A DNA stretch of 64,000 nucleotides from Shewanella sp. 10N.286.48.A6 (GTDB lineage Bacteria; Pseudomonadota; Gammaproteobacteria; Enterobacterales; Shewanellaceae), in assembly GCF_002873135.1 (NCBI RefSeq), contig NZ_MCVI01000026.1:38152-102151 (forward strand). The letters run 5' to 3'. This document shows positions 31,043-44,095 of this stretch, one piece after another. A program made the position numbers and the translations under genes. The notes under the pieces were generated by a model. The model was given only the letters and a program-made list of their open reading frames with translations. It was not told where the DNA came from and did not search any database. Every line of letters starts with the position of its first letter. The first letter of the stretch is position 1.

Positions 31043-32125
31043 ATGAGTTTAACCCGCCTCAATATCGAACATTTCCGAAATATTTTGTCAGCGACATTAG
31101 CGCCAAGTGATGGGCTTAATTTAATTTATGGTGAAAATGGCAGTGGTAAAACCAGCATTTTAGAAGCCATTTATTTTCTCGGTATGGGGCGTTCGTTTCG
31201 TAGCCATCTGTCCCAGCGGGTTATCAATATTGAGCAAGATCAACTGACCTTGTTTGCCAAGCTCGAAATGCCTAATGGCGAAGCTAAATTAGGCCTTAGA
31301 CGGTTCCGCAATGGCGACATTGATGTTAAATTTAATGGCGATAACGTGAAGCGATTATCGGTATTAGCTGAGACGTTACCTATTCAAGTTATCACCCCTG
31401 AAAGTTTTTCTTTACTATTTGAAGGCCCAAAAGCACGCCGGCAGTTTATCGACTGGGGAGCTTTTCATGCTGACAGTCATTTTTATACGGCATGGGTGAA
31501 TACCAGAAGAATTTTAAAGCAAAGAAATCAGCTTCTTAGAGATGGAGCCTCTTACACCAATATACAATTTTGGGATAAGGAATTGGTGCGTTATGCTGAG
31601 CAGGTTACTTCGATACGAAATCAATATGTGGACTCGTTAAATGAGCTACTTAAGGGTATAATCGAAGAGTTTTTACCACGGGTTGATATTAAGGTTTCCT
31701 TTACCCGTGGCTGGGATAGCAAAACGGAATTTGCCGAGTTACTTAAAACTCAATATCACCGAGATTTAGCATCGGGAAATACCGGCAGTGGACCACATAA
31801 AGCGGATTTACGATTACGCGTTGGCAGCTTACCGGTACAGGATGCGTTATCCCGAGGACAGTTAAAATTATTAGTCTGTGCACTGCGCCTTGCACAGGGT
31901 AAATTGCTTCAAAAACAGCAAAACAAGCATAGTATTTACCTAGTGGATGATCTTCCATCTGAGTTAGATGCTCAGCATAGGCAACTATTACTAAAACAGT
32001 TAACCGAAACCGGTGCACAAATTTTTGTCACAGCGATTGATCCTGTTGCAATAGTCGATTCGCTGGCTAGCCCACCAAGTAAGATGTTTCATGTGGAACA
32101 TGGGCAAGTCACGGTAGTTGAATAA
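31043..32125 (+). CDS. recF: Recombination mediator RecF
   Basis: This 360-residue SMC-like ATPase helps load RecA at gaps. The N-terminal [10 protein letters not shown] and Walker [10 protein letters not shown] (30-38) are clear. LSRGQLKLL and VDDLPSELD give the signature and Walker B. It has a 122-bp gap from dnaN with a terminator-like hairpin. The 3' end contains a degenerate parS-like 16-mer at 32085. Confidence 0.96.
32085..32100. other. parS: Weak parS-like site in recF
   Basis: TGTTTCATGTGGAACA differs from the parS consensus TGTTTCACGTGAAACA at two positions, one of them in the central CACGTG. It encodes part of FHVEH near the RecF C-terminus. ParB affinity is likely reduced. Confidence 0.4.
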
Positions 32126-32140
32126 AAACGAGAGAGAAAT

Positions 32141-34558
32141 ATGTCAGAGAATAGTTATGATTCTTCGAGTATTAAGGTTTTAAAAGGCCTTGATGCTGTT
32201 CGTAAGAGACCAGGGATGTACATCGGCGATACTGACGATGGTACAGGTCTTCATCACATGGTATTCGAAGTGGTCGATAACTCTATCGATGAAGCCTTAG
32301 CAGGCCACTGTAGTGACATTACTATCACCATTCATTCAGATGGCTCGGTATCAGTACAAGATGATGGCCGTGGTATTCCTGTAGAGGTTCATGAAGAAGA
32401 GGGTGTGTCCGCTGCCGAAGTTATTATGACGGTACTTCATGCCGGTGGTAAGTTTGATGATAACTCTTATAAAGTATCAGGTGGCTTACACGGTGTTGGT
32501 GTTTCGGTTGTAAACGCATTATCTGAAAAACTGCAAATGACCATTCGTCGTAACGGTAAAGTTTACGAGCAGTTTTATTCAATGGGTGTACCTGATACGC
32601 CAATCACCCCAGTGGGTGAATCAGAAAAAACCGGTACTTCAATCCGTTTCTGGCCAAGCAGTGAAACATTCTCAGATGTGCTATTCCACTTTGACATCTT
32701 GGCTAAACGTGTTCGTGAATTATCATTCTTGAACTCAGGTGTGGGTATCCGTTTAGTTGATGAACGTGATGGCCGTGATGAATTCTTTAAATACGAAGGC
32801 GGCATCAGTGCTTTCGTTGATTACCTTAACCTCAATAAAACGCCGGTGAATAAAGAGGTTTTCCACTTTACTCAAGAGCGTGAAGACGGCATTACCGTTG
32901 AAGTGGCAATGCAGTGGAATGACGGTTATCAAGAAAAGATTTTCTGTTTTACCAATAACATCCCACAACGTGATGGCGGTACTCACTTAGCGGGTTTCCG
33001 GGGTGCATTAACCCGTAACTTAAATAACTATATGGAGCGTGAAGGTTTCAATAAAAAAGGTAAAACCAATGCAACGGGTGATGATGCTCGTGAAGGGTTA
33101 ACCGCGGTTATTTCAGTAAAAGTGCCAGATCCTAAATTCAGTTCACAAACTAAAGACAAGTTAGTGTCGAGTGAAGTGAAAGGTGCGGTTGAACAAACAA
33201 TGGGTGAGCAATTAAATGATTACCTATTAGAAAACCCAACGTATGCAAAATTAATTGTTGGTAAAATCGTTGATGCGGCACGTGCTCGTGAAGCGGCGCG
33301 TAAAGCCCGTGAAATGACCCGTCGTAAAGGCGCATTAGATTTAGGTGGTTTGCCAGGTAAGCTTGCTGATTGCCAAGAGAAAGACCCTGGGCTATCTGAA
33401 ATATACATAGTGGAAGGGGACTCTGCTGGCGGATCAGCCAAGCAGGGACGTAACCGTAAAAACCAAGCTATTCTTCCGCTAAAAGGTAAAATTCTTAACG
33501 TTGAAAAAGCACGTTTCGATAAAATGTTATCTTCTCAAGAGGTCGCGACGCTGATCACTGCATTAGGTTGTGGTATTGGCCGTGATGATTATGATCCTGA
33601 GAAAACCCGTTATCACAACATCATCATCATGACCGATGCTGACGTCGATGGCTCGCACATTCGTACGCTGCTGTTGACTTTCTTCTTCCGTCAAATGCCA
33701 GAGTTGATTGAACGTGGTTACATCTATATTGCTCAACCACCTTTATTTAAAGTTAAAAAAGGTAAGCAAGAGCAGTACCTAAAAGATGAGCCAGCACTAA
33801 CGGAATACTTAACCACTCAAGCGTTAGATGGTACTCATATTTACCCTTCTGCGGGTGCACCAGGTATGACAGGTGAGCCACTAGAGCGTTTAGTGAGCCA
33901 GTATCGTGAGGTTGAAGCGGTTATTGAGCGTTTAACTAAGCGTTACCCAACGGTTATTTGTAACCGTATGCTTTACCACCCAGCACTGAACAATGAAATG
34001 CTGGCTGACGAAGCACAAATGAAGCAGTGGTGTGATGCCTTTGTCGCTGACCTTATTGAGATTGAAACTGACGGCGTTATTTATAACATTGAACCACAAT
34101 TAGATCCTGAGCGTCAGGTATACCTACCAAGCCTAACAATCCGTAAGCATGGTATTGATACTAACTACGTATTTAGTTACGACTTCTTCCAATCAAATGA
34201 TTACCAACGTATTGCTAAGTTAGGCTCAGCATTAGACGGTATGATTGAAGAAGGCGGCTATGTTAAACGTGGCGAGCGTATGAAAGAAGTTGATAGCTTC
34301 TTAGAGGCGCTTGATTGGACTATGTCTGAAGCTAAACGTGGTTTGTACATCCAACGTTATAAAGGATTGGGTGAAATGAACCCTGAGCAATTGTGGGAAA
34401 CTACAATGGATCCTGAAACTCGTCGTATGCTACAAGTCACCATTGAAGATGCCGTAGGCGCTGATCAATTGTTTACTTGTTTGATGGGCGATCAAGTTGA
34501 ACCGCGTCGTGACTTCATTGAAACTAACGCGCTAAACGTTGCTAACTTAGACGTGTAG
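32141..34558 (+). CDS. gyrB: DNA gyrase subunit B
   Basis: This 805-residue ATPase subunit of gyrase is of the gammaproteobacterial long form. The GHKL ATPase contains [23 protein letters not shown] and [15 protein letters not shown]. The TOPRIM domain has [16 protein letters not shown] and the acidic DADVDGSH. The C-terminal [15 protein letters not shown] is present. It lies 15 bp after recF and is followed by a strong terminator. Confidence 0.98.
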
Positions 34559-34580
34559 TCGAGTTTAAAATACATTAAAT

Positions 34581-34607
34581 GGGTGCCTTAAGGCGCCCAT
34601 TTTTTTA
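34581..34607 (+). terminator. Terminator after gyrB
   Basis: GGGTGCC and GGCGCCC pair (one G-U) around TTAA and are followed by seven T residues, 22 bp after the gyrB stop. Confidence 0.9.
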
Positions 34608-34672
34608 TCGGTAATCTCTACAAACTCATCTTGTCACTGTTGTATATTTACCTGAAGTGTAGGTAATTTATT

Positions 34673-42867: not shown

Positions 42868-43273
42868 GCACAGTCCATTTGTTGTCATTATTGTTATAGG
42901 TCACGTTAACACTTTTATGTTTCTTAGTGTTATTGGCGAGTTACAAATCTGATGACATTTATCGCATATATTAGCCAATAACTAAATAGATATTCTGTTT
43001 CAAATAATGACAGCTATCGGGTGACTGCTAGGCTGTAGAATAATTATTTGCAGCTCAGCGATATGAAGCTGGGTGTTTAGCTATTTCAATCTGATAAATT
43101 GCTGTATGTTGGTTAAATTGTGGGGGGCTTTGAGCTGAGTTTTAATTAAGTCGTATAAAAATACGTGAGTATGTATCTAATTTTGCAAGTTTGTTTAGTG
43201 TAATAAAGCACTGAATAGTTATTCATTTTTGCTCAGTGCAACTGTCATTAAAGATAAAACTCAATAGGCACAC
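42868..43273. other. Intergenic stretch without recognised gene
   Basis: About 400 bp between the amidohydrolase start and the MOSC gene end. It is AT-rich with no supported reading frame. A GCACTGA / TCAGTGC inverted repeat (43208-43239, 18-base spacing) is weak. The upstream part presumably holds the amidohydrolase promoter, but I see no convincing hexamers. Confidence 0.5.
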
Positions 43274-43720
43274 TTATATGGTTATTATTGAAACCTGATC
43301 ATCAATTTGGATCAGGCCTTCAGTTATCACTTTACAGGTTACGCCACCACGCCAATCTGGGGTGAGGGCTTTTTCAAGACCTTGCTGTGACTGCTCCATT
43401 TTTTTACATGGGTCGGTTTCACCGGTAATCAGTAAGCTAACATCATTACCAAGTTTAATGACTTTACCAACATCTGCGGCGCTAAACTTATAGCCATCAA
43501 TTAATATATTGGCTCTTCGGGTTAACCAGTCTAAATCGGCATTAATTTCATTACAGGCTAATTGCCACTGTTGCTGCGACATGACGGTCACTTGCCGTTT
43601 TCCGGGTTTTCCAAAAATATCGTTTTCAACGCCTTTTAATAAACTTACCTTGGCACAAAATACTGGCTTCATCGGCCCTTTTTTAGCAGTTTTGTAAGCA
43701 ATAGCGTGTAACGAAATCAT
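43274..43720 (-). CDS. MOSC-domain protein
   Basis: This is a 148-residue stand-alone MOSC (molybdenum cofactor sulfurase C-terminal) domain. The conserved Cys lies in ITGETDPCKKM, and WRGGVTCKVI is also a family motif. Such domains carry sulfur or molybdenum-cofactor chemistry; the exact reaction is unknown. It is two bp after tusA, which points to sulfur-transfer work. The tail DDQVSIITI is typical. Confidence 0.85.
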   Translation of the reverse strand: MISLHAIAYKTAKKGPMKPVFCAKVSLLKGVENDIFGKPGKRQVTVMSQQQWQLACNEINADLDWLTRRANILIDGYKFSAADVGKVIKLGNDVSLLITGETDPCKKMEQSQQGLEKALTPDWRGGVTCKVITEGLIQIDDQVSIITI

Positions 43721-43722
43721 GA

Positions 43723-43968
43723 TTAGAGGCCTTTTTTAATCAGGTATTTATATGGTGTTTGGTTAGTATCACTTGCTAGAAGAGTATGATCCATAAACTC
43801 ACAAAAGCTTGGAATATCACGGGTGGTAGCTGGATCATCAGCAGTAATTAATAGGCTTTCACCTTCTGCCATTTTACGCACAGTTTTACGGATCATCATT
43901 ACAGGTTCTGGGCAACGTAAACCAAGCGCATCTAAGTGGTGGTCTGCGGCAGTAAAATCTTTAGTCAT
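43723..43968 (-). CDS. tusA: Sulfurtransferase TusA
   Basis: This 81-residue carrier passes persulfide sulfur, mainly for 2-thiouridine in tRNA, and also to molybdenum-cofactor steps. The catalytic Cys19 lies in the CPEP motif ([13 protein letters not shown]). It is the first gene of a tusA-MOSC pair. Confidence 0.95.
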
Positions 43969-44079
43969 ATCAATTCTTCTTACTCAACAATTGCGCTAAT
44001 TTTACTCTGGTTAAAGTTTGATGCAACACTGATGCTAGCTTTATTAGTAAAGCGTGATGTTATGCTCACCGAAATATGA

Positions 44080-44095
44080 TGTTCCACGTGAAACA
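44080..44095. other. parS: parS site (one base from consensus)
   Basis: TGTTCCACGTGAAACA differs from the consensus TGTTTCACGTGAAACA at one position. It lies in the tusA-fadA gap, just upstream of the fadA terminator, about 26 kb from oriC. Confidence 0.87.

Follow-up and report, generated by a model that had tools for sequence, protein, structure and literature searches.

The DNA stretch analysed here (the window) comprises 64,000 nucleotides of Shewanella sp. 10N.286.48.A6 (contig NZ_MCVI01000026.1, positions 38,152 to 102,151) and contains the replication origin oriC, the partition genes parA and parB, and four parS sites, which are candidate binding sites of the ParB protein. The genes are ordered parB-parA-rsmG-mnmG, oriC, mioC, the agcS carrier gene and others, then dnaA, dnaN, recF and gyrB (dnaA and dnaN were named by position alone), followed by glyS-glyQ, tag, a large amidohydrolase gene, a MOSC-like open reading frame (ORF) and fadA-fadB. 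The parS sites are all located on the right side of oriC. The parS-like site at 32085..32100 (+ strand) lies in the 3' end of recF (31043..32125, + strand), in the codons for M-F-H-V-E-H, about 13.9 kb from oriC. Two perfect palindromes are found at 39598..39613 (+ strand; 21.4 kb), between the convergent tag and amidohydrolase genes, and at 40903..40918 (+ strand; 22.7 kb), in codons 657-662 (D-V-P-R-G-T, - strand) of the TolB-like/amidohydrolase gene (39670..42888, - strand). The consensus parS TGTTCCACGTGAAACA at 44080..44095 (+ strand; 25.9 kb) is placed between the MOSC-like ORF and fadA.

The four sites were recovered at the coordinates given by an earlier note on this DNA. The reference pattern for parS was TGTTYCACGTGRAACA, and the 16-bp consensus is mainly TGTTNCACGTGAAACA in the published description (PMC7022226). 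Against this pattern the sites at 39598, 40903 and 44080 have zero mismatches, and the site at 32085 has one, in the centre (CATGTG). The earlier note had called 39598 and 40903 perfect, which they are; its counts of one mismatch for 44080 and two for 32085 were made against a strict palindrome, and they hold for that palindrome but not for the reference pattern. No other parS was found in the window with up to three mismatches, including the surroundings of parB and parA (13496-15200). Shuffled windows gave a mean of 0.96 matches at this threshold, and four were reached in 1/100 shuffles. At a threshold of one mismatch, the whole assembly (104 contigs, 4.65 Mb) has only these four sites, whereas the reversed control pattern has none. 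When two mismatches were allowed, one extra site appeared (contig C17), but the control count equalled the observed one (5 vs 5), so that two-mismatch matches are uninformative and were rejected as evidence. The earlier claims that the sites lie 14-26 kb right of oriC, that none as good exists near parAB or on the left arm, and that they look like the parS of the chromosome on the right side only and away from parAB, agree with these results; the whole-assembly scan proposed there did not reveal many equal sites elsewhere.

The window also contains the other parts of a chromosomal ParABS system, with its 16-bp parS near oriC. The oriC (17892..18381) is located between mnmG and mioC; DnaA boxes at 18205, 18278 and 18311, a change of GC skew, and the densest GATC cluster of the window (15 GATC in 400 bp, 18001-18400) place it at about 18.0-18.4 kb. 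The parB gene (13496..14395, - strand) and the parA gene (14418..15200, - strand), which encodes a ParA-type ATPase, are adjacent and next to the gid genes near oriC. The ParB protein has the N-terminal (ParB_N), helix-turn-helix and dimerisation domains, and contains a GERR motif, which we take to be the motif for cytidine triphosphate binding. The genome also encodes SMC, the partner in ParB-dependent SMC loading, as a 1170-aa open frame; a 633-aa piece of this frame matches TIGR02168 (2.6e-167, 558.7 bits; whole-protein cut-off 567.35). MukBEF had been named in the earlier note beside SMC as a complex that would load at the sites. However, no PF04310 match for MukB was found in this genome, whereas the E. 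coli control gave a match; MukBEF loading at parS was rejected on this ground, and SMC is the sole loading candidate here. Another perfect DnaA box, TTATCCACA, is located at 28141-28149 (- strand), just 5' of the presumed dnaA (the ORF at 28412) and about 10 kb from oriC. The closest named match of the Tag protein is 95% identical and comes from Shewanella sp. UCD-KL21.

The gene neighbourhood of the cluster is kept across Shewanella. Stretches of at most 19.5 kb from recF onward were fetched from 59 other Shewanella genomes and their sites were mapped against the window genes, which gave 60 loci including the window. When at most one mismatch is allowed, each of the 60 genomes contains 2-6 sites, as compared with 0-2 for the control pattern. 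A site is found at the same recF place in 46/60 loci, on the tag side in 56/60 (in 51 of these, tag and the amidohydrolase gene flank it directly), inside the amidohydrolase gene in 50/60, and adjacent to fadA in 43/60, with 6 further loci having a site after the amidohydrolase gene where the stretch showed no fadA. An extra site between gyrB and the next recognised gene occurs in 16/60 loci. The downstream sites are partly hidden by contig ends (L172, L179 and L201) or by the 19.5-kb cut (L205, L206 and others). Of the 245 sites counted in the 59 other genomes at the one-mismatch threshold, 216 fall in the fetched stretches, and part of the remainder is background, for example a site at 2.56 Mb in G052. 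The parB gene was placed in 20 Shewanella genomes, with single-contig chromosomes treated as circles for the orientation; in 19 of them one contig carries both parB and recF, and there parB lies upstream of recF, opposite to the parS cluster. A fifth one-mismatch site was observed 14 kb from parB, between parB and recF, in G004, and another fifth site 10 kb from parB in G021, on a contig without recF.

The amidohydrolase gene could be aligned in 47 genomes, after 13/60 rows had been dropped (gene missing, short, or with an in-frame stop). In 251 columns of the alignment all genomes have the same four- or six-fold degenerate amino acid, and only 4 of these columns use a single codon. These are the consecutive parS codons 658-661 (GTT CCA CGT GGA); the third base of the next codon, just beyond parS, is variable (ACA 34, ACC 8, ACT 5). 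Since, among these columns, only the four parS codons are invariant in the 47 genomes, selection acts here on the DNA. A parS with the same codons is present at the homologous place in Ferrimonas (L029), which also keeps the C-terminal recF site. Moreover, the one-mismatch sites in the 60 Shewanella stretches deviate at the outermost or central base in 83/83 cases and never at the inner six, as expected of a bound site that tolerates some variants, and not of chance.

The recF site has a wider distribution. Sequences of recF with flanks were collected from 60 other gammaproteobacterial families, one genome each. RecF was matched in 124 of 143 genomes of the class, and the 60 were the best of these matches in which the alignment extended to the C-terminus. 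Two parS sites are present within recF in 54 of these families, one in 5 and none in 1. A second batch of 20 consisted of the next 17 usable genomes by rank and three better-ranked ones with an unaligned C-terminus, omitted at first; it gave two sites in 11, one in 5 and none in 4, so the combined 80 family representatives have two recF parS in 65, one in 10 and none in 5. The two sites are located at codons 135-142 and 340-351 and share a reading frame, which was found for 113/114 recF-overlapping parS of the first 60. A third parS in L224 (G164) overlaps the recF stop codon (codon 364) in another frame. Other parS in the fetched flanks (at most 9 kb per side) were seen in only 5/60 genomes. 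Among the exact sites listed, those of 20 class genomes outside the first 60 (some also belong to the second batch) fall in the recF match in 13, and 5 of the 20 genomes are without recognisable recF. One-sided parS placement is therefore usual in the Gammaproteobacteria sampled. The earlier note had set the one-sided offset against the layout of many bacteria, in which parS sites are beside parAB or flank oriC. An exceptional placement is not supported, since the neighbourhood is kept across Shewanella, recF parS are usual in the families sampled and Pseudomonas aeruginosa is alike.

Other genomes of the same order were also compared. Two ParB genomes of family f2 have both recF sites perfect. 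No recF parS was found in three same-order genomes without chromosomal ParB (G210, G305 and G234; the ParB match of G234 is only a 32%-identity piece). In 25 non-gammaproteobacterial genomes (26 loci, some of the matches weak), parS was found in none of the recF matches. Some arrangements outside recF were also observed. The two f2 genomes have a third site, TGTTTCATGTGAAACA, with the same centre change as in the Shewanella recF (G198, C2:69189-69204; G214, C4:3331542-3331557), which is located 10-14 kb beyond parB, away from recF. A tight array of three parS in about 90 bp lies about 6.8 kb 5' of recF in the non-gammaproteobacterial L305 (G209). Paired parS 26-32 bp apart are found in G085 (C5:173309-173353), G169 (C56:15003-15050) and G135 (C412:10269-10310); the exact parS of these three genomes are outside any recF match, and no recF was found in G169 and G135.

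Chance matches, or the sites of another palindrome-binding regulator, are an extremely improbable source of the four Shewanella sites. Two of the four are intergenic, where regulators also bind; however, the sites are unique in the genome, conserved in position and sequence, and accompanied by parAB beside oriC, and the 16-mer is as described for chromosomal ParB (PMC7022226). A chance origin was rejected on the shuffled windows and the reversed control. The recF matches could instead be a by-product of a needed RecF peptide (F-H-V-E-H), with a likeness to parS that arises from codon usage alone. The codons argue against this: they are of the parS type in 113/117 motif instances of the first 60, whereas 10.1 would be expected from each recF's own usage, although the sequences share ancestry and 10.1 is not a count of independent events. 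The His codon of both motifs is CAC at a frequency of 0.98, whereas the remaining two conserved His columns have CAC at 0.55 and 0.41; GAA reaches 0.98 and 0.96 at the Glu columns of the motifs, against 0.53-0.65 at three others; and the Val codon is GTG in all rows at both motifs, against 34% outside. Moreover, the Phe codon is coupled to the Glu/Lys position (TTC-GAA 64, TTT-GAA 33, TTT-AAA 15, TTC-AAA 2; Fisher P 3e-5). Glu and Lys change together with the Phe codon in the other arm of the palindrome, so that it is the protein that follows the palindrome. It is true that the RecF region is naturally F-H-x-E, for E. coli, which has no parS in recF, encodes CFHNEP and MFTVEK; that Shewanella keeps the peptide with CAT instead of the parS codon CAC; and that both FHVE peptides persist without parS in L331 (G069). 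Yet the full peptide is missing in E. coli and in the three same-order genomes without chromosomal ParB. A pure protein effect was rejected on the codon excess, the column bias and the Glu/Lys-Phe coupling, and we regard it as very unlikely.

The recF pair (codons ~140 and ~346) is not intact in the window: the codon-142 region (GAFHAD) no longer encodes parS, and the second site is one base off. Across Shewanella the first motif is mostly G-A-F-H-x-x, with no resemblance to parS; whereas the peptide of the second, M/V-F-H-V-E-H/Q, is kept in most genomes. The 46 loci with a recF site have CATGTG in 44, CAGGTG in 1 (L196) and a perfect centre in 1 (L191), and the centre-mutated form reads TGTTTCATGTGGAACA. 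Whether this form is a dead remnant without a role for ParB, kept by chance and by the constraint on RecF, was weighed with 57 aligned genomes (L208, L209 and L210 were dropped, as the recF frames of these assemblies, G023, G048 and G054, are broken). The columns of a plain relic would be expected to drift to background codon usage; those of the second motif are still like parS and therefore look constrained. Its Val (V351) is the most parS-like of 18 conserved columns (GTG 0.86), its Phe (F349) the most parS-like of 13 (TTC 0.54; next highest 0.26), and its Glu (E352) the second of 14 (GAA 0.96). The His codon is CAT in 48/57 genomes and CAC in 3/57, but this alone shows no selection for CAT or against CAC, because CAC is also rare at other His columns (0.02-0.42). 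The CATGTG centre breaks one half-site and keeps the intact half-site TGTTCCAC on the minus strand; half-site binding has been reported for some ParB proteins and not for V. cholerae ParB (PMC7022226). The consensus from chromatin immunoprecipitation (ChIP) in P. aeruginosa, TGTTCCACGTGGAACM, as published covers the ...ACC form that many first recF sites have, and has no centre variant (PMC5098823), which fits a dead remnant. However, centre variants also occur at places outside recF (in L169 on the tag side, and in L012, S. benthica KT99, on the fadA side), and the same CATGTG form is kept in the recF of two genomes of a second same-order family, f146. One f146 genome, G261, has a 3.26-Mb contig with three sites on the parB side, at distances of 68-75 kb from its end, and with a fourth 130 kb from that end. 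We give a dead remnant somewhat less than an even chance.

Several observations weigh against a derivation of the Shewanella layout from a recF centromere common to the class. The recF site within one mismatch is missing in 14/60 Shewanella loci, which also speaks for a dead remnant. Four genomes of first-60 rank were omitted at first for their shorter alignment, and the three read later have no recF parS in 2 and one in 1. L331 and L335 of the second batch keep FHV/FHM peptides without parS within one mismatch. An exact parS is found nowhere in 47/143 class genomes, and 2 of the 20 genomes outside the first 60 (G085 and G189) have a recF with parS elsewhere. In G190 and G097, whose assemblies are fragmented (95% and 81% complete), recF contains parS but ParB gave no hit. 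Moreover, ParB binding in Shewanella sp. was deduced from the sequence.

The layout can be compared with known systems. P. aeruginosa is like Shewanella in that oriC separates parAB, at a distance of about 7 kb, from the parS sites, the nearest of which is in recF, about 4 kb away (PMC3909081). Its four parS are reported within 15 kb of oriC (PMC3909081, PMC5521831, PMC5098823, PMC7022226); parS1 and parS2 are in recF, which makes two published instances of recF parS (PMC5521831), and parS3 and parS4 are upstream of PA0011 and PA0013, beyond tag (PA0010) (PMC3909081, PMC5521831, PMC5098823, PMC7022226). Both recF sites are strong in P. aeruginosa; whereas in Shewanella the first is lost and the second is centre-mutated, and the strong sites lie 21-26 kb from oriC, one past tag, one within the amidohydrolase gene and one next to fadA. 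Chromosome I of Vibrio cholerae is reported to have three natural parS1 sites in one region 65 kb from oriC (PMC4091711), further away than in Shewanella, and G261 may be similar to it. In Caulobacter, extra inserted parS were favoured around recF-gyrB by a mechanism reported as unknown (PMC5815017); however, these were inserted sites in an alphaproteobacterium, and the 25 non-gammaproteobacterial genomes sampled here have no natural parS in recF. In the titles and the opening parts of abstracts, no statement of a class-wide recF parS pair was located. The 2007 study of Livny and colleagues, reportedly the main survey of parS distribution, may hold one.

Taken together, their sequence, position and conservation make it very probable that the four sites serve Shewanella as centromere sites in chromosome segregation. 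The ParB would load at the four sites and then spread, the ParA would move the ParB-bound region towards the pole, and SMC would be handed to the DNA by the ParB, its loading lying 21-26 kb right of oriC, as in other members of the ParABS family. We consider it highly likely that this is a centromere with an inherited one-sided layout, derived from a centromere with two parS in recF. The ancestral type would be the pair found inside recF in most gammaproteobacterial families sampled, where selection on the DNA would fix the RecF peptides F-H-V-E/K-H/P/Q. The Shewanella line would have lost the first recF site, and its second would have been reduced to the centre-mutated form, which most species still keep. 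The other sites follow at a further 7-12 kb, behind tag, within the amidohydrolase gene and next to fadA. The site at 32085 would then be a remnant of the centromere that most relatives carry inside the recF coding sequence.

In P. aeruginosa, parS is reported to be tolerated within a zone around oriC that measures about 650 kb (PMC5098823), so the shift in Shewanella should not by itself impair segregation. Excess ParB was reported to lower expression around parS1-4 of P. aeruginosa, including recF and gyrB (PMC5521831), which may be a reason why a strong recF site was given up in favour of sites in genes of less importance. A more far-reaching proposal, which we put forward tentatively and hold to be more doubtful than not, is that the ancestral gammaproteobacterial centromere was double-coded, its two recF parS dictating two RecF peptides across the class, and that after relocation (in Shewanella and in the second same-order family) the C-terminal copy has persisted, deliberately weakened by its mutated centre, and perhaps serves as an entry point for ParB at a low level or as a brake on the dnaA-dnaN-recF-gyrB operon.

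The recF context, with a double-coded centromere across the class and its relocation, is more notable than the one-sidedness of the sites. The widely kept parS with a changed centre is offered for testing how far ParB tolerates such a change. The puzzle of the one-sided parS gives way to a rule in most of the families sampled, in which a centromere in the recF coding sequence shapes the RecF protein.

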